DNA from: Acetobacteraceae bacterium
Lineage (GTDB): Bacteria; Pseudomonadota; Alphaproteobacteria; Acetobacterales; Acetobacteraceae
Length of the DNA stretch: 37,090 nucleotides
Assembly: GCA_019750475.1 (NCBI GenBank)
Contig: JAIEOO010000423.1
Span: 1-37,090, forward strand
Direction of reading: 5' to 3'
A program made the translations under genes and the position numbers. Below, piece after piece: positions 4,440 to 33,531 of this stretch. A model generated the notes under the pieces. It had not been told where the DNA came from and did not search any database. It was given only the letters and a program-made list of their open reading frames with translations. Each line of letters opens with the position of its first letter. The first letter of the stretch is position 1.

Positions 4440-4547
4440 CCGCGCCCTCATCACGGGCGGTCCCATTCGCGGTCCGATGTTTCGACCGCTGGCGTTCGGT
4501 GGGGCCGCCCGCATGAGTCCGTGGCGGCGCGCAGCCGCGACACCGCG

Positions 4548-4569: not shown

Positions 4570-4583
4570 CCGGGCCGGTCGTC

Positions 4584-6479: not shown

Positions 6480-6484
6480 GGAAA

Positions 6485-6532
6485 GGTCCCTGGATGCGAA
6501 GCGGCGGGCGGATTACGCCCGCGCGCGGGACC
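6485..6532 (-). promoter_or_regulatory. kup leader stem that would pair with the Shine-Dalgarno
   Basis: On the kup mRNA, GGTCCC (6532-6527) can pair with GGGACC (6490-6485), enclosing a perfect inner hairpin GCGGGCG/CGCCCGC (6504-6522). The 3' arm contains the AGGGA ribosome-binding site of the TTG start at 6479, so folding would hide it. The structure is read directly from complementarity. A role in regulating translation is inference. Confidence 0.35.
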
Positions 6533-6560
6533 CTTCTACAACAGGAAAACGCAGGGCTGG

Positions 6561-6576
6561 TTTGCGGTTCCGCAAA
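6561..6576. promoter_or_regulatory. Palindrome between aapP and kup (operator or terminator)
   Basis: TTTGCGG-tt-CCGCAAA has perfect 7-bp arms. It lies 32 bp past the aapP stop and 82 bp before the kup start. It may be the end of the aap transcript (no immediate U-run) or an operator for kup. Confidence 0.3.
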
Positions 6577-6608
6577 GCGCGGATGACGCTTCCGTCAGTG
6601 GCCGCCCC

Positions 6609-7391
<783 letters not shown>

Positions 7392-7475
7392 CGTCTCGTT
7401 CGTGCTCCCGGATGCGGTTTGGCACCAGTCTGGCGGTTTGTGGCGGGCGCCTCAGGTTACGTAAAGGATAATTTT

Positions 7476-7528
7476 GGCCCCGGTCGGGGCCCGGGACGGC
7501 GCCCTGCCCGGTTCGCGGGCAGGGCGCC
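7476..7528 (-). terminator. Strong intercistronic hairpins between aapM and aapP
   Basis: Directly after the aapM stop is a perfect 12-bp inverted repeat GGCGCCCTGCCC/GGGCAGGGCGCC (7498-7509, 7517-7528, 7-nt loop). It is followed by a 6-bp hairpin GGCCCC/GGGGCC (7476-7491). No U-run follows. It could be a partial terminator, an RNase barrier, or an attenuator that changes the ratio of AapP to the permeases. Confidence 0.5.
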
Positions 7529-7540
7529 GGGATTGCCGCC

Positions 7541-8671: not shown

Positions 8672-8675
8672 CGTC

Positions 8676-8756
8676 TCAGCGCTCCACCAGGGCGGTCTTG
8701 GCCGCGGGGAGCTGGCCCTCGGGTCGGCGAAGCGGCGATGCGAAGGATGCGCGCAT
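8676..8756 (-). CDS. Possible 26-residue open frame between aapQ and aapM ending like AapQ
   Basis: An ATG-to-TGA frame of 26 codons fills the aapQ-aapM gap. Its ATG follows GGAGAGG, which overlaps the aapQ stop, and its stop is 4 nt before the aapM ATG. The last residues, ALVER-stop, are identical to the last residues of AapQ. The nucleotides match too: GCGCTGGTGGAGAGGTGA in aapQ against GCCCTGGTGGAGCGCTGA here. It could be a leftover of a small duplication of the aapQ end with its embedded ribosome-binding site, or a coupling peptide. Whether it is translated is unknown. Confidence 0.25.
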   Translation of the reverse strand: MRASFASPLRRPEGQLPAAKTALVER

Positions 8757-8761
8757 GGGCC

Positions 8762-9964: not shown

Positions 9965-9994
9965 TCGGTCTGCCTGTCCTCGGGGTCTTGGCGC

Positions 9995-10052
9995 GCGGGG
10001 TTCTGTGCCCCGCATCGCCGGGAAGACGCGGGCGCCGCAAGGGGCGCCCGCG
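9995..10052 (-). terminator. Intercistronic hairpins between aapJ and aapQ
   Basis: A perfect 10-bp inverted repeat CGCGGGCGCC/GGCGCCCGCG (10027-10036, 10043-10052) starts 9 nt after the aapJ stop. A second hairpin, GCGGGG/CCCCGC (9995-10013), follows. No U-run is present. This placement after the binding-protein gene is classic for leaky termination or mRNA stabilisation that leaves binding protein in excess over permease; that role is inferred. Confidence 0.5.
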
Positions 10053-10060
10053 CGGTCACG

Positions 10061-11125
10061 TCACCGGAAGGGCGGCGCGTATTGCAGCCCGCCCGGCGTG
10101 GTCCACAGCGCGTTCGGGCCGCGCTGCAGGCCGATCGGGTTCAGGTGGCGCTGGAAGATCTCGCCATAGTTGCCGACGGTGCGGATGATGTTGACCATCC
10201 AGGCGTTGTCCAGGCCGAGCATCCGGCCCATGTCGCCCGTCCGGCCGACGATGCGCTGCACCTCGGGACGCGGGTCATTGGCCATGTTGCCGACATTGGC
10301 GGCGGTGATGCCGAACTCCTCGGCCGCGATCAGGCCGAAATGCACCCAGCGGACGATGTCGGCGAAGCGCTGGTCGCCATGGCGCACGAGCGGCCCGAGG
10401 GGCTCCTTGCTGATCACGTCGGGCAGGATGACGTGGTCGTTCGGGTTCTGCTGCGCCGAGCGCGTCGCCGCGAGGCCCGAGACATCGGTGGTGTAGGCGT
10501 CGCAGCGGCCGGCATTGTAGGCGGCGATGTTCTCTTCCAGCCGCTCGATCACCACCGGGCGGATCTGCACGCGGGCGCCGCGCGCCCAGTCGGCCAGGTT
10601 CTGCTCCGTCGTCGTGCCGGGCTGCACGCAGATCGTCGCGCCGTCGAGCTGGCGGGCGTTCTGCACGCCGAGGCTGCGCTTCACCATGAAGCCCTGGCCG
10701 TCATAGAAGTTGATGGCCGGGAAGTCGAAGCCGAGCGAGGTGTCGCGCGACAGCGTCCAGGTCGTGTTGCGCGAGAGCACGTCCACCTCGCCCGACTGGA
10801 GCGCGGTGAAGCGCGCCTGGGCGGTCGTCGGCACGTAGCGCACGCGGTTAGGCTGGTCGCTGCCGAAGATGGCGATGGCGATGGCGCGGCAGTAATCCAC
10901 GTCGAAGCCGCTCCACACGCCCTGGGCGTTGGGCTGGGCGAAGCCGGCGAGGCCGGTGTTCACGCCGCAGATCAGCGCGCCGCGCGCGCGGATCGCGTCG
11001 AGCGTGCTGCCCGAGGGCGCCGCGGCGGGCTGCTGCGCCGGCGCCTGCGCGGCGGCGGGCAGGGTGAGTGTGCCGAGGAGGGCTGCGGCGCCGATGGCGC
11101 GCGTGAAGCTTTGCCGCAAGGACAT
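10061..11125 (-). CDS. aapJ: General L-amino-acid ABC importer, periplasmic binding protein
   Basis: Periplasmic solute-binding protein (family 3), 354 residues including a signal peptide ending AAAQA near residue 28. The mature N-terminus contains CGVNTGLAGFAQPN and WSGFDVDYCRAIAIAIFG, hallmarks of AapJ. Later motifs include FTALQSGEVDVLSRN and TICVQPGTTTEQN. It is the first gene of aapJQMP and binds polar or general L-amino acids for uptake. Start choice: ATG at 11125 or an in-frame GTG at 11131, two codons upstream, which is better spaced from GGGAG. Either leaves the signal peptide intact. The frame extends further upstream without family similarity. Confidence 0.93.
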   Translation of the reverse strand: MSLRQSFTRAIGAAALLGTLTLPAAAQAPAQQPAAAPSGSTLDAIRARGALICGVNTGLAGFAQPNAQGVWSGFDVDYCRAIAIAIFGSDQPNRVRYVPTTAQARFTALQSGEVDVLSRNTTWTLSRDTSLGFDFPAINFYDGQGFMVKRSLGVQNARQLDGATICVQPGTTTEQNLADWARGARVQIRPVVIERLEENIAAYNAGRCDAYTTDVSGLAATRSAQQNPNDHVILPDVISKEPLGPLVRHGDQRFADIVRWVHFGLIAAEEFGITAANVGNMANDPRPEVQRIVGRTGDMGRMLGLDNAWMVNIIRTVGNYGEIFQRHLNPIGLQRGPNALWTTPGGLQYAPPFR

Positions 11126-12249: not shown

Positions 12250-12278
12250 TTGACATTGAGACATCGTTTCTCCACACT
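12250..12278 (+). promoter_or_regulatory. Candidate sigma70 promoter of the RTX/FG-GAP gene
   Basis: A perfect -35 hexamer TTGACA (12250-12255) is followed, after 17 bp, by CACACT (12273-12278), a 3/6 match to the -10. The region is markedly AT-richer than its surroundings. It starts 10 bp after the preceding stop and ends about 28 bp before the start codon. Confidence 0.45.
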
Positions 12279-12306
12279 TTCATTCCAGAAATGTTGGAGA
12301 TGTTCG

Positions 12307-15300
12307 ATGGCTGTCGTCGTTGGCACGTCCGGCAATGATTCGGTCAATAGCGTTTCTCTAAGCCCGGGCGTCACGGGCGGACCGCTGACAGCCGTTGGCG
12401 ACACCATCTTCGGTGGTGCGGGGAATGACCTCGTCACTGCCAGGGAAGGCAATGACACGATCTTCGGTGAGGACGGCAACGACTCGCTCAGCGGCAGTGC
12501 GGGCAACGACCTGATCTATGGCGGCACTGGAAGCGACACCTTCGATGGCGGTCCTGGCAATGACGTCCTGGACGGCGGCGCGGACTTCGACAGCGCGAAC
12601 TACTCCGTCTACGGGTTCGGCATTACGGCCAGCTTCAGCGCAGCATCGGGCACCGTCGCCGGTACGGCAACGGGCACCGATTCCTTGATTGGCATCGAAG
12701 CCATCTGGGGCACGTCAAGCACAGACTCCCTCACGGCGACCGGCGGTGGGACCTTCAGCCTCCTCCTTCGTGGCAATGCGGGCGCCGATACGCTGACCCG
12801 TGCGGGCGGCAGCCGCTGGAGCGTCATCGCGGATTACAGCACCTCAACAGGCACCGTGATCGCCAATCTCGGCACGGGCGTCGTACAGGATGGGTTCGGT
12901 TCCACGGACACGCTCGTCAACATCTTCGCCATCCGTGGCAGCTCGCAGAGCGACACCTTCACCGGCTCCAGCGGCAGCGACGATTTCATGGCCTACGGGG
13001 GTCACAACGTCATCAATGGCGGCTCTGGCGGAACCGACCGCGTCAGCTACGGATTTGCGCCTGGTGTCGCGATCGTGAACCTCGCGCTCGGCACCGCGTC
13101 CAACGGCTATGGTGGCACGGACGCGCTCGTCGGGATCGACGCGATTGCAGGGACGGCATTCAACGACACTCTAACCGGGCACGACGCCTACAACGAACTC
13201 AACGGTTTGGCCGGTAACGACGTCATCAATGGCGGCGGCGGCGGCCGCGACCGACTGATCTATGACAGCTTCTTCGGTATCCAGCCGACGACCGGTGCCA
13301 TCGTAGATCTCGCGACTGGAGTGACCTCCAACGATGGCTACGGCACGACCGACACCTTCACCGGGATGGATCGCGTCAACGGGAACGCCTTCGCCGACAC
13401 GCTGAGCGGCAACAGCAATGGGAACAACCTGAATGGCCGGGCGGGCAACGACCAACTGGACGGTCGGCTTGGCTACGACACGGCCGAGTATTACCTCGCC
13501 TCCTCAGGCGTTGTGGTGAACCTGCAGACGGGCACCGCAAGCGACGGCGAAGGCGGGACCGACACGCTCGTCAGCATCGAGGGCGTCACGGGCTCTGACT
13601 TCAACGACGACCTGACCGGCGGCTCTCCAACCATCGGCACGCACATTGCATGGCTGAGGGGCGGTTTCGGCGCCGACACCATTCGCGCAGGCAACACGTG
13701 GACCGGCGCGAGCTACACCGACCAGACCGAGGGCATGATCATCAGCCTTGCCGCAGGCGGCATCACGAGCGCGACCCTCGGCAATGATGTGTTCGTCGGC
13801 GCCGTTCGCGGCATCCAGATGTTCGGCACCTTCAATGACACATTGACTGGCTCGTCGGGCGACGACGTATTGGCCCCGTCCGGCGGCAACGATGTGGTCA
13901 ATGGCGGCACCGGCTCGGACTGGGTGAGCTATGGCGGGCGCGTCGCCGCGGGTGCCGTCGTCAACTTGGCCCTTGGCACTGCGCAGGACGGCGAAGGCGG
14001 CACGGACACCCTCATCTCCATCGAGAACGTCAACGGCACGGCCTACGCCGACACGCTGACCGGAGACGCCGGTGACAATGTGTTTTCGCCGAGCCATGGC
14101 GCCGACGCGGTCACCGGCAACGGTGGCACCGATACCGTGGACTACGGTATGTTCGGCACTGCTAGCGGCACCGTCGCGTCGTGGAGCGCCAACGACCGCA
14201 CATTTACCCAGCAGCTCAACGCCGGGGTCACGGTGGACCTCGCCGCCGCCACGGCGACCGACCTCCTAGGCTCGACCGACCTGCTGAATGGCATCTCTAA
14301 TGCGGGTGGCCATGGGACCCTCGCGGACATCCTTCGCGGCAGTACAGGCGCCAACTATCTGTTCGGCCGCGGCGGCAACGACCTGCTCGACGGCCGCGCC
14401 GGCGATGACGTCCTGGACGGCGGCGCCGACACGGACCAGATGGCGGGCGGCACCGGCTTCGACACCTCCGTCCTGTCTGGACAGCGCTCGGCCTACAGCC
14501 TCGCCCGGCAGAATGACGGCACGCTGATCACCTTCGGCACCGACGGCTACGACACCCACACCGGCATCGAGGCGCTGCGCTTCGGCGACGTCACCATCGG
14601 CCTCAACAGCCGCGCCAAGGATCTCTGGGGCGACCTGCGCGCCGGCGTGCTGTGGCAGAATGGCGGCACCGTCTGGGGATGGGAGCTGAACGGCACCACC
14701 GTCGCCAGCCAAGGCGGCGTCGGCGTCGTCGGCAGCGGCTGGGCCCTCGCCGGCACCGGCGACCTCGATGGAAATGGCCGGGCCGACGCGGTGTTCCGCA
14801 ACGCCGCCGGCGACCTCTACGCCTGGCGCATGAACGGGCTGGGCGTCGCGTCGGGCGCAGGCATCGGCAACCTGCCCACCGAGTGGCAGCTCGCCGGCAT
14901 GGGCGACATGGACGGCAACGGCACCGCCGACATGCTCTGGCGCCGCGGCTCGGACGGGGCGCTCTATTCCTGGCTGATGCAGGACACGGCCGTGACCGGC
15001 GGCGCCTGGATCGGCGCCCTGCCCGACTGGACCGTCGCGGCGCTGAGCGACTTCACCGGCGATGGCCGCAGCGACATCCTGCTGCGCAAGACCGACGGCA
15101 CGCTGTTCATCGCGCAGATGAACGGGGCCTCGCCCTCCGCCTATCTGGGCGTCGGCGCGATGGGGGCCGAATGGGCCGTGCGCGGCGCGGGCGACACCAA
15201 CGCCGACGGCAGGTCCGACATCATCTGGCAGAACACCTCAACAGGCGCGGTGTGGCGCTGGGCGATGGACGGCGCGACCATCGCGGGGGCAGACCAGCTT

Positions 15301-15483
15301 GGTACTGTCGGCTCGCCCTGGGCGGTGCAGGCGGTGGCGGACTACACGGGCGATGGCCGCGCCGATGTGCTTTGGCGCAACACGGCCACGGGCGATGTCT
15401 ATGGCTGGACGCTGGGCAATGCCGGCCTCACCGGCCAGAGCGGTATCGGCACCGTCGGCACGGAGTGGCAGATCGTCGCGTAG
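12307..15483 (+). CDS. Secreted-type calcium-binding repeat protein (RTX nonapeptides plus FG-GAP-like repeats)
   Basis: A 1058-residue protein with no N-terminal signal peptide. Residues 36-96 are RTX nonapeptides (GGAGNDLV, GEDGNDSL, GGTGSDTF, GGPGNDVL), which bind Ca2+ as a beta-roll. Residues ~103-680 hold eight ~85-residue units, each built of GxxVxLxxGxAxDGxGGTDTL, IExVxGTxxxDTLTG and a diverged nonapeptide. Residues ~685-715 are a second RTX run. Residues ~769-1058 are six ~48-residue FG-GAP-like repeats with D-x-D/T-G-D/N-G-x-x-D calcium loops and a W-x-x-NG strand. Such proteins usually leave by type I secretion, but no T1SS genes are nearby and the C-terminus is a propeller repeat rather than a typical acidic tail. 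ATG 12307 follows GGAGATGTTCG. By eye the first two-thirds use more A/T-ending codons than the last third. Role (surface layer, adhesion, binding) is unknown. Confidence 0.85.
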   Translation: MAVVVGTSGNDSVNSVSLSPGVTGGPLTAVGDTIFGGAGNDLVTAREGNDTIFGEDGNDSLSGSAGNDLIYGGTGSDTFDGGPGNDVLDGGADFDSANYSVYGFGITASFSAASGTVAGTATGTDSLIGIEAIWGTSSTDSLTATGGGTFSLLLRGNAGADTLTRAGGSRWSVIADYSTSTGTVIANLGTGVVQDGFGSTDTLVNIFAIRGSSQSDTFTGSSGSDDFMAYGGHNVINGGSGGTDRVSYGFAPGVAIVNLALGTASNGYGGTDALVGIDAIAGTAFNDTLTGHDAYNELNGLAGNDVINGGGGGRDRLIYDSFFGIQPTTGAIVDLATGVTSNDGYGTTDTFTGMDRVNGNAFADTLSGNSNGNNLNGRAGNDQLDGRLGYDTAEYYLASSGVVVNLQTGTASDGEGGTDTLVSIEGVTGSDFNDDLTGGSPTIGTHIAWLRGGFGADTIRAGNTWTGASYTDQTEGMIISLAAGGITSATLGNDVFVGAVRGIQMFGTFNDTLTGSSGDDVLAPSGGNDVVNGGTGSDWVSYGGRVAAGAVVNLALGTAQDGEGGTDTLISIENVNGTAYADTLTGDAGDNVFSPSHGADAVTGNGGTDTVDYGMFGTASGTVASWSANDRTFTQQLNAGVTVDLAAATATDLLGSTDLLNGISNAGGHGTLADILRGSTGANYLFGRGGNDLLDGRAGDDVLDGGADTDQMAGGTGFDTSVLSGQRSAYSLARQNDGTLITFGTDGYDTHTGIEALRFGDVTIGLNSRAKDLWGDLRAGVLWQNGGTVWGWELNGTTVASQGGVGVVGSGWALAGTGDLDGNGRADAVFRNAAGDLYAWRMNGLGVASGAGIGNLPTEWQLAGMGDMDGNGTADMLWRRGSDGALYSWLMQDTAVTGGAWIGALPDWTVAALSDFTGDGRSDILLRKTDGTLFIAQMNGASPSAYLGVGAMGAEWAVRGAGDTNADGRSDIIWQNTSTGAVWRWAMDGATIAGADQLGTVGSPWAVQAVADYTGDGRADVLWRNTATGDVYGWTLGNAGLTGQSGIGTVGTEWQIVA
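12613..14350 (+). repeat. Eight ~85-codon internal repeats of the RTX-type protein
   Basis: Units begin at strands such as GVAIVNLALGTASNGYGG, GVVVNLQTGTASDGEGG and GAVVNLALGTAQDGEGG. Each ends in a TxxxDTLTG motif. Units 3, 5 and 7 are most alike; 1, 6 and 8 are most diverged. Confidence 0.7.
14611..15480 (+). repeat. Six ~48-codon FG-GAP-like repeats at the C-terminus
   Basis: Five repeats start with a Ca-loop (DLDGNGRAD, DMDGNGTAD, DFTGDGRSD, DTNADGRSD, DYTGDGRAD). The first copy, with GDLRAG, has lost it. Each continues to VLWRN-type and W-x-x-NG strands and ends in a G-x-E/S-W strand, as in beta-propeller blades. Confidence 0.7.
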
Positions 15484-24517: not shown

Positions 24518-24527
24518 GGGTCGCGGT

Positions 24528-27278
24528 TTAGCCTTCGTTGTCGAGGCCAAGCCGGCAGAGCAGGTTGCGTGCCGATGCTGCATTGCCCTGGTAGCCGATC
24601 GCTTCGAAGCGACGGATCGCGTCACGGATAGTGGTGCGCGCCTCGTCGCGCTTGCCCTCGGCAGCCGCGATCTCGCCGAGCCTCGCTTGGCAGATCGCCG
24701 CGCCCACCGGATCGCCAATTGCTTCATGCCGCGCTCGCGCATCTTCGCAGCCAGCCCGTGCGAGGGCGAAATCGGAGCAGGCAAGGGCGATCTCGGCGAG
24801 GCCCCTGATGCAGTTGGCCTCGCCGAGGCGGTCGCCGATGGCCTCGTAGATTGGCCGCGCCTCATTGTAGCGCGCCTCGGCCGCGGGCAGGTCGGAGCGG
24901 CCCGACGCCACATTGGCGAGGCGCTGGATGCAGTTGGCCTCGCCGAGGCGGTCGCCGATGGCCGCGTAGATCGCCCGCGCCTCGCCGTAGCGCGCTTCGG
25001 CCGCGGGCAGGTCGGAGCGGCGGAGGGCGACGTCGGCGAGGCCCTGGATGCAGTTGGCCTCGCCGAGGCGGTTGCCGAAGGCCGCGTAGATCAGCCGCGC
25101 CTCGCCGTTGCGCGCTTCGGCCGCGCGCAGGTCGGAGCGGCGGAGCGCCAAATCGGCGAGGCGCCTGATGCAGTTGGCCTCGCCGAGGCGGTCGCCGATG
25201 GCCTCATAGATCAGCCGCGCCTCACTGTAGCGCGCCTCGGCTGCGGGCAGGTCGGCGCCGCCCGACGCCACATCGGCGAGGCGCTTGATGCAGTTGGCCT
25301 CGCCGAGGCGGTCGCCGATGGCCTCATAGATCAGCCGCGCCTCATTATAGCACGTCTCGGCCGCGGGCAGGTCGGAGCGGCGGAACGCCACGTCAGCCAG
25401 GCCCTTGATGCAGTTGGCCTCGCCGAGGGGGAGGCCGATGGCCCCGTAGATCAGCCGCGCCTCACTGTAGCGCGCCTCGGCCGCGGGCAGGTCGGAGTGG
25501 CCCGACGCCACATCGGCAAGGCCCCTGATGCAGTTGGCCTCGCCGAGGCGGTCGCCGATGGCCTCGTAGATCAGCCGCGCCTCATTGTAGCGTACCGCGG
25601 CCGCGGGCAGGTCCGAGCGGCGGAACGCCACATCGGCGAGGCCCTTGATGCAGTGGCTCTCGTCGAGGCGGTCCTCCGCGTCTCGGCAGGCGGTGGCCAG
25701 CGTCACGAGGCCAGGCGCGGCAAGGCCGGTGAAGCAGCAGAACCGGCCATAACCGAAACTGGCGCTAACCGCTTGCGGCAGCGAGCCGGCAGCCGTAGCT
25801 GCGCCCATCGCGGCATCAAAATTGGCCGCCTCCGGTCGCAGCCGGCGGAGCGCCACGTCCCCGCCGGTCATGCCAATACGCTCGCCCTCCTCTTGCAGGA
25901 GCGACAGGAAGTGCCCTACCCACGCCGCCGCCTCAGCCGGAAGCGGCCGATGATGCTGACCCGCGTGCCGCCGGACGGGCGGCAGAAAGTCGAGCCGCCC
26001 GTCGCGTATCTTCGCCAGTCCGATGCCGCGGAGCCCGCTTGCGGCCCCGTCGGCCTCCGCGCCCAGCAACGCCTCTGCATCCTCCAGTGAAAGACCCGCC
26101 GGCAAAGCGCCTAGGAGACGGAACAGCCGCCGCGCCGCTTCACTCAAACGCGGCGACGCCAGCGAGAACTCGATGGATCGCTTGAGCGAGGCGTGGCGGT
26201 GATCCGGGTCATCTGGGTTCGGATGGGCCACCGCCGCCGCGCCGCCGTGCTGCCAGGCTCGCCAGACGCGGTCCAAACTCTCGTCCAGCTCGGCTTGCCG
26301 AGCCATCAGCTCGATGGCCAGCGGGATGTGGCTCAGTTCCTGGAGAAGCCGCGGCAGCAGGGGGTCATCGGGCGGAATGCGATGCGCCCTGTCCAGGAAT
26401 AGCTCCGCCGCCGTGTCGGGCGGCAGGGGGCACAGGTCGCAGCGATGGTTCCACCTTGCGCCGCCGGGCGATTTCAGCCCGATGATCGAGCCCAGCAGCG
26501 TCACGCCGGGCACGGCCACAAGCTCCCGCAGCAGGCTTTCAACGGCCTTGCCGTCACGGTCCCACGGTGTTTCGAGATTATCGCACAGCAGCAGGACAGG
26601 TGCCGCCGCGAGCGTCGCCTTGATGGCCCCGAGCCCCTGGCTCGGATCGGCGCCAACCGCTTGGGCGATGGCCGCCTGCATGTCCTGGGCCGAAGTGGTA
26701 GTCGCCAACTCGGCCTCGAAGCGCCGTTCCCCGAAGCGCGCGACCACATCCGCGTGCCACGCGGCGTGCCGCGTCAGCGCCGTCTTTCCGATCCCGCCGT
26801 CGCCCAGGACGAGGGCAGCCGTATTGCCGGGCGCCAGCAAGGCCGCAACGAGTGCCGCGAGTTCCGCCTCCCGTCCGAAAATGTGGTCCGGTCTGGTGAC
26901 AAGCTTGCCGGTGGGCACCGACGGGCCGGGCGCCGCTAAAGGCGGCCGGCCCTTCGGGTCCGCCGCCTCCCAGGCGGCGCGAAGCTCCGCACGCTGGGCA
27001 GCATGGGCAACGGCGTCGTGGAACAGATAGTCCTCGATGGCCTTTTGCTTAGTGCTGTCGGGCCTACGAACGCCGTTCAGATAGTTTCGGACGGTCTTGT
27101 CCTCGACACTCAGGTGCTTCGCGAGGGTCTGTGGCGTGCGGACCTCACCACGGGGGCCGAACACGCCGTTCAGGAAACGCTCCAGCCGCTGTCCATAGGC
27201 GCGCTTCTCAGGCGTCTGCGTTCCGTCGCGTTCCGCGCTGTTCCGGCGTTCCGTCGAGGGGCGTTTGCGGGTGTCCAT
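24528..27278 (-). CDS. HTH-NB-ARC-TPR protein (NLR-like STAND ATPase)
   Basis: A 916-residue signal-transduction ATPase. Residues ~49-85 form a helix-turn-helix (TPQTLAKHLSVEDKTVRNYLNG). Residues ~130-380 are an NB-ARC domain: FGREAEL, Walker A GDGGIGKT (159-166), Walker B VLLLCDN (228-234), and a GLPL-type HIPLAIEL (317-324). Where relatives carry an S/T-x-R sensor, the sequence reads GSIIGLKS, so the sensor Arg may be lost. Residues ~380-540 are a winged-helix/arm region. Residues 543-902 are nine 40-residue TPRs, seven nearly identical. Such proteins switch from ADP monomer to ATP oligomer on ligand binding by the repeats. The HTH suggests DNA output, although many bacterial homologues are antiphage sensors. 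Start ATG 27278 has GGGA upstream. The gene is divergent from a small membrane-protein gene. Exact function unknown. Confidence 0.88.
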   Translation of the reverse strand: MDTRKRPSTERRNSAERDGTQTPEKRAYGQRLERFLNGVFGPRGEVRTPQTLAKHLSVEDKTVRNYLNGVRRPDSTKQKAIEDYLFHDAVAHAAQRAELRAAWEAADPKGRPPLAAPGPSVPTGKLVTRPDHIFGREAELAALVAALLAPGNTAALVLGDGGIGKTALTRHAAWHADVVARFGERRFEAELATTTSAQDMQAAIAQAVGADPSQGLGAIKATLAAAPVLLLCDNLETPWDRDGKAVESLLRELVAVPGVTLLGSIIGLKSPGGARWNHRCDLCPLPPDTAAELFLDRAHRIPPDDPLLPRLLQELSHIPLAIELMARQAELDESLDRVWRAWQHGGAAAVAHPNPDDPDHRHASLKRSIEFSLASPRLSEAARRLFRLLGALPAGLSLEDAEALLGAEADGAASGLRGIGLAKIRDGRLDFLPPVRRHAGQHHRPLPAEAAAWVGHFLSLLQEEGERIGMTGGDVALRRLRPEAANFDAAMGAATAAGSLPQAVSASFGYGRFCCFTGLAAPGLVTLATACRDAEDRLDESHCIKGLADVAFRRSDLPAAAVRYNEARLIYEAIGDRLGEANCIRGLADVASGHSDLPAAEARYSEARLIYGAIGLPLGEANCIKGLADVAFRRSDLPAAETCYNEARLIYEAIGDRLGEANCIKRLADVASGGADLPAAEARYSEARLIYEAIGDRLGEANCIRRLADLALRRSDLRAAEARNGEARLIYAAFGNRLGEANCIQGLADVALRRSDLPAAEARYGEARAIYAAIGDRLGEANCIQRLANVASGRSDLPAAEARYNEARPIYEAIGDRLGEANCIRGLAEIALACSDFALARAGCEDARARHEAIGDPVGAAICQARLGEIAAAEGKRDEARTTIRDAIRRFEAIGYQGNAASARNLLCRLGLDNEG
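24813..25652 (-). repeat. Seven tandem 120-bp TPR-coding repeats
   Basis: Seven exact-length 120-bp units (plus two degenerate units, 24573-24812) each encode C-I-x-x-LADVA...DLPAAEARY.EARLIYEAIGDRLGEAN. Units differ by only a few bases each. They alternate between an AFRRSDL/ALRRSDL form and an ASGxxDL form (1 F, 2 S, 3 F, 4 S, 5-6 L, 7 S), suggesting duplication of 240-bp pairs and ongoing recombination. Confidence 0.92.
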
Positions 27279-27308
27279 CGTTCCCGGCGGATGTTGTCAA
27301 TGCGGTGT

Positions 27309-27327
27309 CGGCCCAAAGGAGGGGCCG
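27309..27327 (+). promoter_or_regulatory. Hairpin presenting a Shine-Dalgarno in its loop
   Basis: CGGCCC (27309-27314) pairs with GGGCCG (27322-27327). The 7-nt loop is AAAGGAG, the core of the ribosome-binding site for the ATG at 27331. The stem could modulate access of the ribosome. The complementarity is seen directly; regulation is inferred. Confidence 0.4.
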
Positions 27328-27330
27328 GCC

Positions 27331-27582
27331 ATGTTCGATCCATCCGATAACGTGAACCTGACGGTTCCCGCGTTCAACCCCGTCCCCCACGCTCCACTCG
27401 CGGCGTGGCTCGATCCGCTGATGATTGTCGTCGCCCTTGCTCTCGCGGGCTACGCCGTCATCAACGGCCTCAACCTCTACGACGCCTGCAAGGCCATGCG
27501 CTGCGGCCAGCCCTGCCGGGCCAAATGGCTCAAATTCCTCGGCTATCTCGCCATCACCACCAAGGCGCTCGTCACGCTGTGA
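27331..27582 (+). CDS. Small two-helix membrane protein divergent from the STAND gene
   Basis: 83 residues. A polar N-terminus (FDPSDNVNLTVPAFNP), a helix LDPLMIVVALALAGYAVINGL, a basic loop with three Cys (DACKAMRCGQPCRAKW) and a second segment WLKFLGYLAITTKALVTL. The positive loop predicts a cytoplasmic loop with both ends periplasmic. The start is fixed by AAAGGAGG upstream of ATG 27331. It shares a 52-bp divergent gap with the HTH-NB-ARC-TPR gene and converges with pip (9-bp gap). No family recognised; a target or effector relationship to the STAND protein is speculation from position. Confidence 0.72.
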   Translation: MFDPSDNVNLTVPAFNPVPHAPLAAWLDPLMIVVALALAGYAVINGLNLYDACKAMRCGQPCRAKWLKFLGYLAITTKALVTL

Positions 27583-27591
27583 CGCCGCCCC

Positions 27592-28539
27592 TCAGCGCCG
27601 CCGGAACCGCTCCACCGCCGCGACCAGGGCCGTGCGGATGCCGGGCTCCAGCGCCGAATGCCCGGCATCGGGCACCACCGTCAGCCGCGCGCGCGGCCAG
27701 GCGGTGGCCAGCTCGAAGGCGGTCTCCGCGGGGCAGACCATGTCGTAGCGGCCCTGGATGATCTCGGCCGGCACATGCGCCACGCGGTCCATATGGGCCA
27801 GCAGCCCGCCATCGGGCAGGAACAGGTGGTGGGCGAAGTAATGCGCCTCGATCCGCGCCAGCCCCAGGGCGGTGCGGTCCTGCGCGAAGCTCGCCACCGT
27901 CTCGGGCGAGGGCAGCAGGGTGGAGCAATTGCCCTCGTACTGGCTCCAGGCCCGGGCCGCCGGCAGGTGGACCTGCGGGTCGGGGTCGGTCAGGCGGCGC
28001 AGATAGGCGCCGAGCAGGTCATGCCGCTCGGAGGCGTGGACATGCTCGGCGAAGGACGCCCAGGCGTCGGGGAAGAAGCGGCGCAGCCCGTAGAGGAACC
28101 AGTCCACCTCCGCCTCGCGGCCCAGGAACACGCCGCGCAGCACGCAGCCCGTCACCCGGTCCGGATGCGCCTGGGCATAGGCCAGCGCGAGGGTCGAGCC
28201 CCAGCTGCCGCCGAACAGCAGCCAGCGTTCGAGCCCGAGGAAGCGCCGCAGCGTCTCGATGTCCTCGACCAGGTGCGGCGTGGTGTTGGCGCGCAACTCC
28301 CCGAGCGGCCGGGACCGGCCGGCGCCGCGCTGGTCGAAGATGATGAGCCGCCAGTGCAGCGGGTCGAAGAAGCGCCGATGCACGGCGCCCGCCCCGGCGC
28401 CCGGCCCGCCATGCAGGAACAGCACCGGCTGGCCGCGCGGATTGCCCACCTGCTCCCAATACATGACGTGCCCGTCCGAGAGCGGCAGCAGGCCGGTCTC
28501 GAAGGGCGCGATGTCGGGAAAGAGGTCGCCGCGCGGCAT
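27592..28539 (-). CDS. pip: Proline iminopeptidase
   Basis: Alpha/beta-hydrolase serine peptidase (S33) removing N-terminal proline; 315 residues. N-terminal FETGLLPLSDGHVMYWEQVGNP and FLHGGPGAGAG (oxyanion hole) are diagnostic. Catalytic Ser112 lies in GGSWGS, with the acid in QGRYD and His in DAGHSA. ATG 28539 (MPRGDLFPDI) gives the family start; the upstream open frame to 28662 is Arg-rich and unlike the family. It is cytoplasmic by lack of a signal. Monocistronic, divergent from the DUF2225-like gene. Confidence 0.94.
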   Translation of the reverse strand: MPRGDLFPDIAPFETGLLPLSDGHVMYWEQVGNPRGQPVLFLHGGPGAGAGAVHRRFFDPLHWRLIIFDQRGAGRSRPLGELRANTTPHLVEDIETLRRFLGLERWLLFGGSWGSTLALAYAQAHPDRVTGCVLRGVFLGREAEVDWFLYGLRRFFPDAWASFAEHVHASERHDLLGAYLRRLTDPDPQVHLPAARAWSQYEGNCSTLLPSPETVASFAQDRTALGLARIEAHYFAHHLFLPDGGLLAHMDRVAHVPAEIIQGRYDMVCPAETAFELATAWPRARLTVVPDAGHSALEPGIRTALVAAVERFRRR

Positions 28540-28664
28540 GGCCCGAATATCCGCGCGGCGGCGCGGGGAAACAAGCCGCTTGCCGCGGGGAAACCGGTGC
28601 CCGCGCCGCGAAACACCCGAAGAAGCTCCGATCGCGTCGCGCCCCCTTCGCCAATTCATCACGG

Positions 28665-29441
28665 ATGCCTACCTTGCAGGGGATGGCCGCACCCTCTCCC
28701 GCTCCGCACTCCCGGCCCCGCCAGCCGGGCACGCTGGTCTGCGGCGTCTGCGGCACCGAGAGCCGGCAGCAGAGCTTCCGTCCCGCCGCGCCCGAACAGG
28801 CGCCCGACCTCGACCTGCGTCCGGGCGAGCCCGTCCGCGGCACCATGGCCCGCTGGCTGCAGCAATGCCCGCATTGCGGCTACGCCGCGCCCGACATCGC
28901 GCAGGCCCACCCGGCCGCGGCGCAGGCGGTGGGCGCGGCGAACTTCCGGGCCCTGCTGAACGACGCGGCCCACCCGCCCCTGGCGCGGCGCTTCCTGGCC
29001 TGGGCCCTCGTGCTCGAGGAGACGGGGGCGCTGCACGCGGCGGCCGAGGCGACGCTTCAGGCCGCCTGGGTCGCGGATGATTCCGGCCGCGCCGACCTCG
29101 CCCGCGCCTGGCGGCTGGAGGCGGTGGCGCTCTGGCGCAGCGGGCCGCCCCTCGACGCCGAGCAGACCGTGCGGGTCGTGGACGCGCTGCGCCGCGCCGG
29201 CGCCTGGGACGACGCGGCCACGACGGCGGAGGCCATGCTGCGCGGCGACCCGCCCGAGGCCGTCGGCCAGGTGCTCATGCTCGAGCTGCGGCTGATCGAG
29301 CGGCACGATGACGGCCGCCACACCGTGGCCACCGCGCTGCCCCCGCCGTCACGCCGGCCGCACGTGACCCATGGCCGCACGGCGCCGGCCGCGGGCGGGG
29401 GCCTGATGGCCTGGGTGAGGAAGCTGTTCCGGCGGGGCTGA
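28665..29441 (+). CDS. DUF2225-like zinc-ribbon protein
   Basis: Up to 258 residues. Two CxxC knuckles (VCGVCGT near residue 27 and QCPHCGY near residue 69) would bind one zinc. Between them is FRPAAPEQAPDLDLRPG. The second knuckle is followed by helical TPR-like segments (ANFRALLNDA..., LAWALVLEETG..., ADLARAWRLEAVALWR). The C-terminus is basic (WVRKLFRRG). This layout matches DUF2225-type proteins of unknown function. Start uncertain: ATG 28665 or 28683; neither has a good ribosome-binding site. Confidence 0.7.
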   Translation: MPTLQGMAAPSPAPHSRPRQPGTLVCGVCGTESRQQSFRPAAPEQAPDLDLRPGEPVRGTMARWLQQCPHCGYAAPDIAQAHPAAAQAVGAANFRALLNDAAHPPLARRFLAWALVLEETGALHAAAEATLQAAWVADDSGRADLARAWRLEAVALWRSGPPLDAEQTVRVVDALRRAGAWDDAATTAEAMLRGDPPEAVGQVLMLELRLIERHDDGRHTVATALPPPSRRPHVTHGRTAPAAGGGLMAWVRKLFRRG

Positions 29442-29468
29442 GACCGCTTCCGGCCGGGGCCGGGTTAC

Positions 29469-29481
29469 GTTATGCTATAAC
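29469..29481 (+). promoter_or_regulatory. Zur-like palindrome abutting the zinc-binding protein start
   Basis: GTTAT-gct-ATAAC is a perfect 13-bp inverted repeat ending one base before ATG 29482. Its sequence resembles the AT-rich Zur boxes (GTTAT...ATAAC type) of Proteobacteria. It contains TATGCT, a usable -10 whose start point would fall at about the ATG, implying a leaderless, zinc-repressed transcript. Zur control is inferred from motif and gene. Confidence 0.6.
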
Positions 29482-30366
29482 ATGCTCCGCCGGTCCCTGG
29501 CCTTCCTCGCCCTCCTTCCGCTGGCCGCGCGGGCTCAGGCGCCGCTGCGCGTGGTGGCCTCCTTCTCGATCCTGGGCGATCTCGCGCGCGAGGTCGGAGG
29601 CGAGCGCATCGCCCTGACGATGCTCGCCGGGCCCGACGTGGACGCGCATCACTTCCAGCCCCGTCCCTCCCATGCGGAGGCGCTCAGGGGAGCGGCCGTC
29701 GCCATCCGCAACGGCTGGGGCTTCGACCCCTGGTTCGAACGCCTGCTCCGCTCGACGAATTTCCGGGGCGTGCAGGTGACGGCGACCGAGGGCATCACCC
29801 CGCTCGAGGCCCGGCCGACGCCCGGCCACAACCACGGCCCGGCGGACCCGCACGCTTGGCAGGACGTGCGCCACGCGGCGCGCTACGCCCGGACCATCGC
29901 GGCCGGCCTGGCGCGGGCGGACGCGGCCGGGGCCGCGACCTATCAGGCAGCGGCCGCGGCGTTCTCTACCCGGCTCGATGCCCTCGATGCCTGGGTGCGC
30001 GCGCAGGTGGCGACGGTTCCCGAGGCGCGGCGCGTCGTGGTGACGAGCCACGACGCCTTCGCCTATTTCAGCGCGGCCTACGGGGTGCGCTTCCTGGCGC
30101 CGCAGGGCGTGGCGAAGCAGGCGGAACCTTCGGCGCAGCAGGTGGCGCAACTGATCCGCCAGATCCGCGGGCAGGGGATCACCGCCGTGTTCCTCGAGAA
30201 CATGACGAACCCGGCCACGCTGGAGCGGCTGGCGGCCGAGGCCGGCGTGAGGATCCGCGGACGGCTCTTCGCCGACGCGCTGTCAGCGCCGGACGGGCCG
30301 GCGCCGACCTATGAGGCGATGATGCGGCACAATGTCGGGCTGATGGTGACCGCGATGCGGGGCTGA
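29482..30366 (+). CDS. znuA: Zinc ABC transporter periplasmic binding protein (ZnuA-like)
   Basis: Cluster A-I metal-binding protein, 294 residues with a signal peptide ending AARAQ. Metal ligands appear at family positions: His in GPDVDAHHFQP, His in PADPHAWQDV, His in VTSHDAFAYFSAAYG, and an Asp/Glu near LFADALS. A short His-containing loop (TPGHNHGPADPH) is typical of zinc rather than manganese proteins. It has a Zur-like palindrome at its start. No permease or ATPase gene (znuB/znuC) is adjacent, so it is an orphan or its partners lie elsewhere. Zinc specificity is inferred from loop and operator. Confidence 0.85.
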   Translation: MLRRSLAFLALLPLAARAQAPLRVVASFSILGDLAREVGGERIALTMLAGPDVDAHHFQPRPSHAEALRGAAVAIRNGWGFDPWFERLLRSTNFRGVQVTATEGITPLEARPTPGHNHGPADPHAWQDVRHAARYARTIAAGLARADAAGAATYQAAAAAFSTRLDALDAWVRAQVATVPEARRVVVTSHDAFAYFSAAYGVRFLAPQGVAKQAEPSAQQVAQLIRQIRGQGITAVFLENMTNPATLERLAAEAGVRIRGRLFADALSAPDGPAPTYEAMMRHNVGLMVTAMRG

Positions 30367-30376
30367 AACCCGCAGC

Positions 30377-30523
30377 TCAGAACTTCAGCCCGGCGAGCCA
30401 GAAGAGGAACAGCAGGAAGGCGATCCAGGCGGAACCGTGCAGCATGTAGGCCGGCAGCGACATGGGCGCTTCGTCCCGGGCGCTGGGGCGGCGATTCCGC
30501 GGAGTCAGGACGCGTTCGGTCAT
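30377..30523 (-). CDS. 48-residue single-pass membrane protein
   Basis: A short frame (ATG 30523, TGA 30377) with a basic N-terminus (TERVLTPRNRRPSARDEAP) and one helix (SAWIAFLLFLFWLAGLKF) running to the end. It has AGAGG about 12 nt upstream and strongly GC-ending codons. It is too short for common length cut-offs. It converges with znuA (10-bp gap). No family recognised. Confidence 0.5.
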   Translation of the reverse strand: MTERVLTPRNRRPSARDEAPMSLPAYMLHGSAWIAFLLFLFWLAGLKF

Positions 30524-30918
30524 CGGGGGGCCTCTATGGGTCGCTCAGACCCAACCATGGGTTGTGCCAACTCAGCAATGCGCTCCTCGCACGAAAACAG
30601 GTCGCCGCGGTGTCAGGTTAGGTCAGGAAAAGCCGACGACACGCGCCGCGAGCAGCTTGAACGCAGCTTCAGGCCAATTTGTTGCACTGCCATTTCGTGT
30701 CCGGCGCTCGTGCCGGAGCCCGGAAGCGCTCACCCGCATAGGTTGTCGAAGCCGGCGCGGCGCGTCCGATGGGCTCCCGGCCGGCGCAGGATGGCCCCGA
30801 GCGGCGCCGGTCAGGGCGCGAAGCGACGCTCGACCGCGGCCACGGCCGCCAGGGCGCAACCGCTGCGCGACGCGGCCCAGGCCATGCGCGCGGCCCGGCG
30901 CGACCATGCCCCTCCCGA
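30524..30918. other. 395-bp stretch without a convincing gene
   Basis: The first half is AT-richer than the window. It carries an inverted repeat ACCCA-acca-TGGGT near 30549 and a direct repeat GTCAGG-ttag-GTCAGG near 30615, either of which could be a regulator site. The second half returns to high GC. A 24-residue frame on the - strand (30811-30885) is in frame beyond the stop of the next gene but lacks a ribosome-binding site. No tRNA or other RNA was seen. Confidence 0.5.
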
Positions 30919-31533
30919 TCAGCGCCGCGCCGCGCCGAACTCCACCGCGGCCAGCCGCCCCAGCGCGCCGCGGACGAACAAGGCCGGGTCGGCGAGGTAG
31001 GCTTCGGCCATCGGCATCGCATCCGCGCCCCAGAACAGCTCGGATCCGGCGGCGAGAGTCGGCACGCCGAAGACGCCGCGGGCGATGGCCTCCTCGGTCC
31101 AGAGCCGCAGCCGCTCCTTCGCGCCCTCGTCCGGGGGCGGCGCTCCGAGGCGCTGGCGCAGCGCCTCGGCCTCCCCGGGGTCCGACGGGTCGCGCCCTTC
31201 GCCCCAGATGAAGTCGAACACCGCCCGCACCGCCGGCGCCGGGCTGTCCAGCGCGGCCAGCAGGCGCAGCGCCTCGAGCGACCGGAAGGGGTGTCGGGGC
31301 GGAAAGCGCAGGGCGAGGCCCGCCTGCTGCGCCTGGAAGGTGACCAGACGATAGGTGTGCCGCCGCTTCGGCTCGATCTCGGCCGGGCCGAGCTGCCCCC
31401 AGTGCTTGAGGATGGCGCCGAACACCACGGGGCGCAGGATGACCGCGCGGCGCGCCGCCAGCCGCTCCACCGCCGGCAGCGCCAGATGCGCGAAGGGCGA
31501 GACGGGGTCGAAATACCAGACGAGTTCGGGCAT
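30919..31533 (-). CDS. 2-hydroxychromene-2-carboxylate isomerase / DsbA-fold (kappa-GST) family protein
   Basis: 204 residues with thioredoxin-like DsbA fold. The N-terminus is VWYFDPVSPFAHLAL, where HCCA isomerases place the glutathione-contacting Ser (SPFAHL) rather than a CxxC. The C-terminal cis-Pro motif is GVFGVPTLAAG, followed by FWGADAMPMAEAYL. No redox Cys pair is present, so isomerase or GSH-transferase chemistry is more likely than disulfide exchange. ATG 31533 follows GGAAGGA. It is divergent from the endonuclease V gene. The natural substrate is unknown; naphthalene-type catabolic genes are absent. Confidence 0.85.
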   Translation of the reverse strand: MPELVWYFDPVSPFAHLALPAVERLAARRAVILRPVVFGAILKHWGQLGPAEIEPKRRHTYRLVTFQAQQAGLALRFPPRHPFRSLEALRLLAALDSPAPAVRAVFDFIWGEGRDPSDPGEAEALRQRLGAPPPDEGAKERLRLWTEEAIARGVFGVPTLAAGSELFWGADAMPMAEAYLADPALFVRGALGRLAAVEFGAARR

Positions 31534-31576
31534 GCCGCGTTCCTTCCCGGGGTGCATGGGCAAGGGAGGCTAGGCG

Positions 31577-32236
31577 CTGGCGCTCGACACGTCCTCCCTC
31601 CGGCGGGAGCAGCAGGCGATTGCGGGGCGCGTGTCGCTGGCGGATGAGCTGCCCGCCGCGCCGCGGCTGATCGCGGGCGCCGATGTCTCGGCCACGCGCT
31701 TCGACCCGGACGGACGCGTGTACGCCGCCATGGTCGTCCTCGAGTGGCCATCCCTGCGGGAGGTGGCGCGCGCGGGCACCGTGGAGCGCGCGCCGCTGCC
31801 CTACATCCCAGGGCTGCTCGGCTTCCGCGAGATCCCGGCGCTGCGGGCCTGCTGGGACGCCTTGCCCGCGAAGCCGGAGCTGATCTTCGTGGACGGCATG
31901 GGGATCCTGCATCCCCGCCGCTGCGGCATCGCGAGCCATCTCGGCGTCGTGCTCGACGTGCCGACGATCGGGGTGGGCAAGTCGCGCCTCGTCGGCGATC
32001 CCGCGGGCCCGCTGCCCGACACGGCCGGCGCGAGCGTGGAGCTGCGCGTCGGCGGGGAGGTCCGGGGCGCGCTGCTGCGCAGCAAGCCGAGGGCCAACCC
32101 GCTCTGGATCTCGCCCGGCCACCGCGTCTCGGTCGCGGGGGCGCTCGGATGGGTGCGGGCGACGCTGCGCGGCTACCGCCTGCCGGAACCGACGCGCCTC
32201 GCGCATCTCGCGGCGGGGGCCGTGCGGCGGGGCTGA
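31577..32236 (+). CDS. nfi: Endonuclease V (deoxyinosine 3'-endonuclease), probable CTG start
   Basis: Repairs deaminated adenine by nicking near deoxyinosine. About 219 residues. Motifs: IAGADVS with the first catalytic Asp, YIPGLLGFREIPAL with the catalytic Glu, FVDGMGILHPRRCGIASHLG with Asp and His (the His usual before the second Gly is Met here), VPTIGVGKSRL, and GHRVSVAGALGWV. In-frame coding similarity extends upstream of the GTG at 31631: SSLRREQQAIAGRV matches the usual LRxxQ N-terminus. The frame opens only after TAG 31571, so the likely start is CTG 31577, 7 nt after AGGGAGG. GTG 31631 is the conventional alternative. Confidence 0.9.
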   Translation: MALDTSSLRREQQAIAGRVSLADELPAAPRLIAGADVSATRFDPDGRVYAAMVVLEWPSLREVARAGTVERAPLPYIPGLLGFREIPALRACWDALPAKPELIFVDGMGILHPRRCGIASHLGVVLDVPTIGVGKSRLVGDPAGPLPDTAGASVELRVGGEVRGALLRSKPRANPLWISPGHRVSVAGALGWVRATLRGYRLPEPTRLAHLAAGAVRRG

Positions 32237-32272
32237 TACCCGCGCCGCCCGTCCTGAGCTACACGGCGTCCC

Positions 32273-32635
32273 ATGCATCGCTTGTGGATCGCGGCCGGCG
32301 CGCTGACCGGGCTGAAGGCCGTGGGCTGGTCGGCCTGGGCGGCCCATGCCGGGCCGCGCGTGCTGGCGCCCGCCGAACTCGCGATGCTCGGCACCGCGCT
32401 GCAGACGATGGGCTGGCACGCCCCCGCCCTCATCGCCGCCGCCCTCTGGGCGGAGCGGCGCGGCCGCCTCGCCCATGCCGGCTGCGGCCTGCTGCTCGCG
32501 GGGCTGATCCTCTTCGCCGGGGCGCTCTTCTGCCGCGCCCTCTGGGGCGTGTCGCTCGGCTTCGTGGCGCCGCTCGGCGGCCTGACGCTGATGGCCGGCT
32601 GGGCGGTGCTGGCCGCCTCGGCCGTCCGGCGGTGA
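32273..32635 (+). CDS. DUF423 family membrane protein
   Basis: 120 residues, about four hydrophobic segments. The DUF423/YgdD pattern is visible: an N-terminal helix with AAGALTGLKAVGWSAWAAHAG (where GAFGAHAL is usual), L..ALQTMGWHAPALIAAALW, CGLLLAGLILFAGALF, and APLGGLTLMAGWAVLA at the C-terminus. The gene is 36 bp after endonuclease V and its stop overlaps the next start (GTGA), so it is co-transcribed with the methyltransferase. Function of the family is unknown. Confidence 0.8.
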   Translation: MHRLWIAAGALTGLKAVGWSAWAAHAGPRVLAPAELAMLGTALQTMGWHAPALIAAALWAERRGRLAHAGCGLLLAGLILFAGALFCRALWGVSLGFVAPLGGLTLMAGWAVLAASAVRR

Positions 32636-33531
32636 TCCGCAGCGCCTACCTGGCGGCCGAGGGGTTCGAGCAGCCGCTGGAGGAGGAACTGGCCCGGGCC
32701 GGCGTCCGCATCGCGTGGCATGGCCGCCTCGCCCTCGCCGACGCCCCAGCCCGCCCCTGCGCCTGGGCGCTGGAGGTGTGGGACGCGCCGGTCGAGCTGC
32801 CCGCTCCCTCGGTGAAGGCGGCGGCCGACGCGCTGCGCGCGATCCAGCGCAACTGGGCGCTGGTGCCCACGGCGCATCACCGCCGCGCCGCCCTCATCGC
32901 CGAGCGGTTGCCGCCGGTGAAGGCGCGGCCGCTCGTGTTCCCTGAACCGGCGCCGACCGGCCATCTCGGCGGCTGGACGCTGCTCGCCCCCGATGTGGTG
33001 CTGGCCTCGCCCACCAAATCCTCGCCCTTTGCGGGCGGGGAGGTCCGCTTCGTCGAGGACCGGGAGGGCCCGCCCTCGCGCGCCTATCTCAAGCTGTGGG
33101 AGGGGCTGACGCGCGCGGGCCGCCACCCGGTGCCGGGGGAGCGCTGCCTGGACCTCGGGGCCTCGCCCGGCGGCTGGACCTGGGTGCTGGCGAAGCTCGG
33201 CGCCGAGGTGACCGCGGTGGACAAGGCGCCGCTCGACTCGCGGATCGCCGCCATGAAGGGCGTCGCCTGGCGCCAGGAGAGCGCCTTCGCCCTCGCGCCC
33301 GAGCCGGCGGACTGGCTGTTCTCCGACGTGATCTGCTACCCGGCGCGGCTGCTCGCGCTGGTGCGGCGCTGGATCGCGGCGGGCTGCGTGCCGCGGATGC
33401 TCTGCACCGTGAAGTTCCAGGGCGCGACGGACCACGAGAGCGCCGAGGCCTTCGCCGCCATCCCCGGCGGCCGGCTGTTCCACGCCGCCCACAACAAGCA
33501 CGAGCTGACCTGGGTGTGGGAGCGGCCCTGA
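32632..33531 (+). CDS. rlmM: RlmM-like FtsJ-type rRNA 2'-O-methyltransferase
   Basis: 299 residues from GTG 32632, overlapping the DUF423 stop. The N-terminal half (SAYLAAEGFEQPLEEEL; ALRAIQRNWALVP) resembles the RNA-binding half of RlmM, which modifies C2498 of 23S rRNA. The C-terminal Rossmann domain has SAM motif LDLGASPGGWTWVLAKLG near residues 172-189, TAVDKAPLD, and catalytic-type Lys in SRAYLKLWE and CTVKFQG. It is shorter than the ~366-residue E. coli enzyme, so exact site specificity is inferred. Name used as nearest family. Confidence 0.8.
   Translation: MIRSAYLAAEGFEQPLEEELARAGVRIAWHGRLALADAPARPCAWALEVWDAPVELPAPSVKAAADALRAIQRNWALVPTAHHRRAALIAERLPPVKARPLVFPEPAPTGHLGGWTLLAPDVVLASPTKSSPFAGGEVRFVEDREGPPSRAYLKLWEGLTRAGRHPVPGERCLDLGASPGGWTWVLAKLGAEVTAVDKAPLDSRIAAMKGVAWRQESAFALAPEPADWLFSDVICYPARLLALVRRWIAAGCVPRMLCTVKFQGATDHESAEAFAAIPGGRLFHAAHNKHELTWVWERP

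Follow-up and report, generated by a model that had tools for sequence, protein, structure and literature searches.

A putative two-gene switch in Acetobacteraceae pairing an HTH-STAND-TPR protein with a divergently encoded membrane miniprotein

In a 37,090-nucleotide stretch of DNA from an Acetobacteraceae bacterium (positions 1 to 37,090 of contig JAIEOO010000423.1, assembly GCA_019750475.1; hereafter the window), two divergent genes form a compact cassette. One, on the minus strand (24528-27278), encodes a 916-residue STAND protein composed of a helix-turn-helix (HTH) module, an NB-ARC-like ATPase core, and tetratricopeptide repeats (TPR); the other, on the plus strand (ATG at 27331, stop at 27582), encodes a hydrophobic miniprotein of 83 residues with two hydrophobic segments and three cysteines, and 52 bp (27279-27330) separate the two start codons. 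Here, we show that pairing and orientation recur among HTH-type relatives, that one STAND core carries varied N-termini, that its occurrence is rare and patchy, and that the ribosome-binding sites (RBS) of the miniprotein genes are structured as a group. This suggests a rare switch, undescribed so far. Tentatively, and with somewhat less than even confidence, we read the cassette as a two-gene NLR-like conflict switch, in which the HTH module would replace a fused effector and the output would come from a gated membrane miniprotein encoded on its own.

A divergent small gene recurs beside HTH-type STAND genes

Relatives of the STAND gene were collected by a pattern scan, derived from an alignment of five homologs and run on one genome per species (84,980 species), which gave 25 loci; genome searches added L071 (a second copy in genome G014), L104 (G659), and L108 (G869). 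Duplicates were counted once (L066/L072, L067/L073, L068/L075/L102/L110, L069/L081, L070/L083, L101/L079, L105/L076, and L109/L080), and loci whose match is cut by the locus end (L093, L094) or which have no recognizable intact N-terminus (L088, L091) were excluded. The HTH module was found at 12 loci (the window, L072, L073, L074, L076, L077, L079, L081, L082, L083, L086, and L087), and 13 loci carry other N-terminal domains on the same STAND core.

Partner genes were called by a fixed rule: a divergent open reading frame (ORF) of 45-110 residues whose ATG lies within -20 to 200 bp of the start of the STAND gene, with a Shine-Dalgarno (SD) match of at least 4, a hydropathy of 1.2 or more in the best 17-residue segment, and a coding-like GC pattern. 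The background comprised 350 other genes called either in the family loci or in 17 stretches from relatives in the genus. Such a partner was present at 9 of the 12 HTH-type loci, compared with 1 of the 13 others (L095; Fisher p 0.0009) and 6 of the 350 background genes (p 4e-12). Seven of the nine were accepted as membrane miniproteins (window, 83 residues; L072, 58; L073, 51; L074, 64; L081, 92; L083, 64; L087, 76), and with these only the ratio is 7/12 versus 1/13 (p 0.01); all seven are divergent from their STAND gene. An earlier note on this DNA, made from the sequence, had named two findings that would speak against a functional pair, namely, STAND homologs that rarely carry the small gene and a small gene occurring without the STAND gene. 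These counts contradict the first for the HTH type, and among 299 family genomes the miniprotein was found solely beside the STAND gene, bar one weak partial match.

Three of the seven miniproteins are clearly homologous to one another, and a fourth is homologous to one of these. The miniprotein of the window has no detectable relation to the other six, and none of those six (L072, L073, L074, L081, L083, and L087) matched a Pfam family above cut-off. In the window, the first hydrophobic segment is strong (residues 23-39, 27397-27447, plus strand; 17-residue Kyte-Doolittle mean 2.16) and the second moderate (residues 67-83, 27529-27579, plus strand; mean 1.32), and a strong SD sequence, AAAGGAGG, ends 8 nt upstream of the ATG. 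Length, cysteines, and SD sequence thus agree with the two-helix, 83-residue membrane protein with a strong RBS that had been described previously, the two helices being predicted from hydropathy. This protein was unmatched in Pfam, PADLOC, and NCBIfam, and PHROGs returned a 13-residue stretch at 0.28 only. A single-sequence search of 200 family genomes returned two matches at E 0.002-0.003 outside its own genome, neither of them credible: the one at L003 lies within a longer ORF overlapping another gene (presumably transporter-like), and the one at L002 has three in-frame stops. There was no match in the one-genome-per-species contig collection or in phages, and two plasmid matches in Shinella (E 0.4), beneath an annotated regulator gene, were likewise rejected.

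The scope of the pairing is narrow, since sphingomonad-type relatives adjoin mobilization genes and carry different small genes. In the NB-domain tree, L077, L082, and L086 group in a supported clade; all three are close to TraG-like genes (in L086 with a match under cut-off), and L082 contains a MobA/MobL relaxase with a homolog in L086. The small gene of L082 encodes a soluble-looking protein of 103 residues related to one in L077, and L086 encodes zinc-ribbon-like proteins (matches under cut-off) with a hydrophobic middle. We therefore rejected these loci, with their different small genes beside TraG-like or MobA/MobL-like genes, as further pairings; L082 and L086 still satisfy the fixed rule, and dropping both gives the 7/12 reported above. 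In L086, a row of three small zinc-ribbon-like genes (3910-4662) is divergent to the HTH-STAND gene, with TraG-like and relaxase-like genes close by; L077 contains a 47% relative of the gene at 3910-4227.

One STAND core with varied N-termini

The large protein of the window shows the features of a STAND NTPase: GxxGxGK and DN-ETP as invariant columns of an 11-row alignment, and C-terminal TPR repeats. The Walker A region LGDGGIGKTA (residues 157-166; 26781-26810, minus strand) contains the invariant G159, G162, G164, and K165, and the invariant D233, N234, E236, T237, and P238 mark the Walker B region LLLLCDNLE (residues 228-236; 26571-26597, minus strand). Pfam matched TPR_12 at 6.4e-29 and AAA_16 at 6.6e-6 (27.2 bits, under the 32.6 cut-off). 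NB-ARC reached E 0.3 in the window protein, with matches above cut-off in L074, L084, L086, L087, and L108 and under cut-off in L072 and L081. The TPR-coding part comprises a tandem array of 120-bp units (24793-25673, minus strand; 7.3 copies, 87% matches), which looks like a recent expansion of the sensor part, as a fast-changing sensor might show.

An HTH-type module is located at the STAND N-terminus in the window and in 11 relatives, in L077 in another frame. In the L077 gene (4622-7028 of that locus, from a complete Sphingomonas chromosome), the HTH is in a different frame from the remainder of the STAND protein, reflecting either a sequencing error or a broken gene. In the window, the module spans approximately residues 25-105 (26964-27206, minus strand) in an alignment of 11 homologs and is classed as Cro/C1-like by its relatives. 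Its own score is weak (HTH_11, E 0.11), and HTH_3 was matched just above cut-off in L079, more weakly in L074 (E 0.001), L087, and L076, and not in L072, L073, and L086 in the Pfam scan of relatives. The previous description of an NLR-like ATPase with a DNA-binding HTH is therefore upheld for the STAND motifs and the TPR, whereas the HTH is weak in the window and clear only in relatives. Pfam scans of the window N-terminus matched no enzyme family and found no fused effector, only the HTH-type module in that position, and neither Pfam nor NCBIfam matched a SARP (ODB-BTA) domain there. The NCBIfam AfsR model aligns only with the TPR part. A role in the biosynthesis of ribosomally synthesized and posttranslationally modified peptides, as an NCBIfam HaaT match (8e-39) might imply, was rejected, this match covering only the TPR residues 638-910 with 133 bits versus a cut-off of 1125.

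Among the relatives with other N-termini, SIR2-type domains occur in L071, L085, L092, and L104 (SIR2_2, 2e-12 to 1e-18), and DUF4062 or DUF4062-like domains in L078 (4e-22) and in L075, L080, and L108 (0.0002-0.007, under cut-off). A TIR-type domain is present in L090 (TIR_2, 3e-8), a phosphorylase type in L089 (PNP, 9e-18), and an oxidoreductase-type domain in L084 (Pyr_redox_2, 4e-11). The more distant L095 and L096 are, as we assume from their sequence, of the SARP type. Related STAND cores with such varied N-termini indicate that the same core is joined to an effector-type domain in some proteins and to an HTH in others. In the NB-domain tree of 25 rows, 16 (the 12 HTH-type and four DUF4062-type rows) form one starred set, and the HTH label requires three changes, a number as low as this being reached in 0 of 500 shuffles. 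The HTH type may have a single origin.

The distribution of this STAND family is rare and patchy. Among 21 genus genomes, 13 with a completeness of at least 90%, the STAND protein of the window was detected at E 1e-20 in its own genome only, the full-length protein not being found in any of the 20 others (12 at least 90% complete). Homologs of its N-terminal 546 residues were found in 6 of 397 family genomes, the window genome among them, counting the best three candidates per genome. Genome G014 holds two members, L073 of the HTH type with a miniprotein and L071 of the SIR2 type without one. The L072 record is named Solirubrobacterales; an identical sequence occurs in G027, which is placed in the family of the window, and the record is thus probably misnamed.

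Structured translation starts and the setting of the locus

The SD sequence of the window's small gene is embedded in a dyad, CGGCCC-AAAGGAG-GGGCCG (27309-27327, plus strand), located 3 nt before the ATG and equaled in 16 of 500 base shuffles. Perfect dyads with arms of 6-10 and spacers of 7-9 lie on the RBS at four of the seven miniprotein loci: the arms measure 6 in the window, around the 7-nt loop AAAGGAG, 7 in L072 and L074, and 10 in L087, where the dyad ends at the ATG, and none of 500 shuffles was as good in the latter three. Arms of at least 6 were found in 4/7 miniprotein genes versus 8/174 other genes with an SD sequence (p 0.0004). The dyad sequences themselves differ among loci, with cross-locus matches of at most 4 bases. 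Folding z-scores of the region -36 to +15 range from -0.6 to -3.5 in the seven genes, with a mean of -1.88 compared with +0.10 for the background (n=174), and none of 20,000 random sets of seven was as low; in the predicted folds, the start codon is partly paired in the window, L073, L074, L081, and L083. The other four small genes scored -1.20 (L076), +0.48 (L082), -0.61 (L086), and +0.71 (L079). As a group, therefore, the miniprotein genes have an unusual RBS structure. The dyad could act in the RNA, as a lock, or in the DNA, as an operator bound by the HTH. A weak lead in the same region is the 8-base word GGTGTCGG (27304-27311, plus strand), present exactly in three of the seven intergenic regions; an 8-mer in as many regions was found in 7 of 200 shuffle sets, and 38, 81, 45, and 16 sets of 200 equaled the observation for 6-mers, 7-mers, one-mismatch 8-mers, and one-mismatch 9-mers, respectively.

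The cassette is flanked by a gene for an Rrf2-type regulator (rrf2; Pfam Rrf2; plus strand, ending at 24517) and a proline-iminopeptidase-like gene (pip, a name kept from the earlier note; Abhydrolase_1; minus strand, ending at 27592), with convergent gaps of 10 bp to the STAND gene and 9 bp to the small gene, in agreement with the layout and coordinates noted before. Third-position GC is 0.83 in the STAND gene and 0.84 in the small gene, below the 0.95 of rrf2, 0.92 of pip, and 0.97 of cysK; on this compositional ground, both genes perhaps arrived together from elsewhere. Insertion into a conserved rrf2-pip pair was rejected, since the two are not adjacent in other genus genomes. Of the 21 genus genomes, 17 carry rrf2 and 18 carry pip. 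Besides the window genome, 16 have both genes, 13 of them on separate contigs and three (G202, G204, and G210) on a shared contig at distances of at least 0.3 Mb, and pip was absent from the approximately 1.5-kb flanks of rrf2 in all 17 other rrf2 loci. As the two genes are apart in relatives, gene order places the cassette at a probable rearrangement junction and not in a split conserved pair. The draft assembly of the window genome (G000) comprises 444 contigs, and the junction may reflect misassembly. In G200 and G211 (L051, L053), blocks matching window positions 27.6-29.4, 31.6-33.5, and 4.6-10.3 kb stand consecutively, and this block order (window 4584-10342 and 27585-33511) suggests that gene order is rearranged in the window genome. 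Elsewhere in the window, a 1,077-residue ORF (12250-15483) has a third-position GC of 0.84, below most of its neighbors; its Gly/Asp-rich start presumably resembles RTX proteins.

A tentative switch model, its alternatives, and known systems

In the proposed switch, the STAND-TPR core would act as the sensor, its TPR domain detecting an intruder or stress. ATP-driven oligomerization would then place the HTH on the short control region that both genes share and activate the small gene; without this, the hairpin would keep the translation start of the small gene closed, unless the dyad serves as an operator. The miniprotein would finally disturb the inner membrane and halt growth. The most far-reaching version, a new architecture of bacterial NLR-like immunity with a DNA-binding module that stands in for the fused enzyme of the receptor and unlocks a divergent, RNA-hairpin-gated, two-helix membrane killer, so that the sensor kills via gene expression and not via an attached enzyme, is possible but on the doubtful side. 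The recurrent divergent pairing partly supports the previous proposal that the sensor controls or acts with the membrane protein; its trigger and output are conjectural.

Several observations weigh against the switch. The pairing rule was formulated after the pattern had been noticed, and the dyad was spotted and tested on the same loci. Among the HTH-type loci, the small gene of L076, at a distance of 221 bp, encodes a protein of 150 residues with two hydrophobic segments, outside the rule; L079 has a soluble HTH_17 protein beside a STAND ORF of only 577 residues; L077, L082, and L086 carry other small genes, of a soluble type in L077; and three of the seven miniproteins (L081, L083, and L087) are only moderately hydrophobic. 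Perfect arms are only 4-5 bp long in three of the seven loci (L081, 5; L073 and L083, 4), and 38, 119, and 125 of 500 shuffles, respectively, were as good. The folding z-score of the window is -0.6 to -0.75 in a GC-rich sequence, as low as in 39 of 174 genes, and absolute energies of the region -32 to -1 are not unusual at several loci, with 129, 79, 40, and 27 of the 174 as stable as L073, L083, L074, and L072, respectively. Consensus promoter and terminator scans of the locus were empty. Furthermore, the miniprotein of the window had no credible homolog in any collection searched, neither protein had a credible match in phages or plasmids, nor the STAND protein in viral contigs, and PADLOC matched in the STAND protein of the window only the TPR and PDC-S39 at 0.81.

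An alternative that we consider unlikely is regulation without killing, similar to that by AfsR or GutR, with a ligand-activated STAND activator and a small membrane protein serving as an ordinary stress or metabolic effector. Transcription-activating STAND proteins indeed exist (AfsR, MalT, and GutR; PMC10936776, available excerpt), and the shared control region is short, but close relatives bear NADase-type and other conflict-type domains on the same core, which makes a conflict role likelier than metabolic control. Moreover, the pair was not found at E 1e-20 in 20/20 other genus genomes (12 of them at least 90% complete) and is rare in the family, unlike housekeeping control, and the RBS structure of the small genes is unusual as a group.

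These RBS dyads also point to control of expression rather than to direct partnership, in which the miniprotein would be an anchor, inhibitor, or recruited pore of the STAND protein and the HTH-like module a protein-binding adaptor. The weak HTH score of the window is in line with such a partnership, and small N-terminal effector-associated adaptor domains are known in such systems (PMC8195603, available excerpt); given the HTH_3 matches in relatives and the divergent layout in all seven accepted loci, we regard it as rather improbable. A third alternative, that the small ORF of the window represents an orphan gene of unrelated origin and the recurrent pairing concerns other loci alone, is in line with its lack of detectable similarity to the other small proteins and its place at a rearrangement junction. 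We consider it very unlikely, because the ORF has the position, orientation, hydrophobic plan, and size range seen at the other loci and an RBS dyad as well, only 6/350 background genes have such a neighbor, and its third-position GC is that of the STAND gene and not that of rrf2, cysK, or pip.

The separate themes of the conflict switch are known, and it is the combination of an HTH-STAND protein with a divergent miniprotein that appears to be new; no description of an HTH-STAND-TPR protein paired with a divergent small membrane protein was found in titles and abstract openings of the open-access papers retrieved. Bacterial NLR and Avs defense STAND proteins have C-terminal repeats, a changeable N-terminus, and a patchy distribution, and in many known bacterial NLR-like proteins the effector is fused to the sensor. 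The window family likewise shows a STAND core, C-terminal repeats, a changeable N-terminus, and patchiness, but its HTH type was found without an N-terminal enzyme, and a divergent gene of its own encodes the candidate effector, the miniprotein. In AfsR-AfsS of Streptomyces, a SARP-NOD-TPR activator with its target gene, a STAND-TPR protein likewise stands beside a small gene, afsS presumably being the small neighbor of afsR. In contrast to that system, no SARP was found here, the partner is divergent and hydrophobic, and relatives of the core bear conflict-type domains. AfsR itself is described as a STAND-TPR protein able to activate a target gene (PMC10936776, available excerpt).

In CARD-NLR systems (LypABC and the Lysobacter CARD-NLR with gasdermin), an exception to such fusion, the membrane effector is encoded apart from the NLR (PMC13236601, available excerpt), and these share with the window an NLR-like ATPase, TPR-like repeats, and a separate candidate membrane effector. 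However, they place a CARD and a protease, neither seen at the window, between sensor and effector, and that excerpt does not present LypABC as a pair of an HTH protein and a miniprotein. DUF4062 has been reported as a TIR-like antiphage NADase in Swarozyc (PMC13174449, excerpt); DUF4062 or DUF4062-like domains are found on close relatives of the window's STAND-TPR core, whereas the window protein has the HTH module in that position. Judged from the excerpts available, toxins of type I toxin-antitoxin systems offer a partial parallel, being short and hydrophobic with a structured translation start, a start structure that the small gene of the window may share; this gene, however, adjoins a large STAND gene. 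Earlier reports cover both two-transmembrane SLATT proteins linked to other conflict systems (PMC7159879, excerpt) and HTH domains in effector position (PMC7159879 and PMC8195603, excerpts).

The small proteins described here point to a family without a match in the libraries searched. If the proposed conflict switch is true, it would link the transcription-activating STAND proteins AfsR, GutR, and MalT with immune STAND proteins and would show a route of conversion between them.

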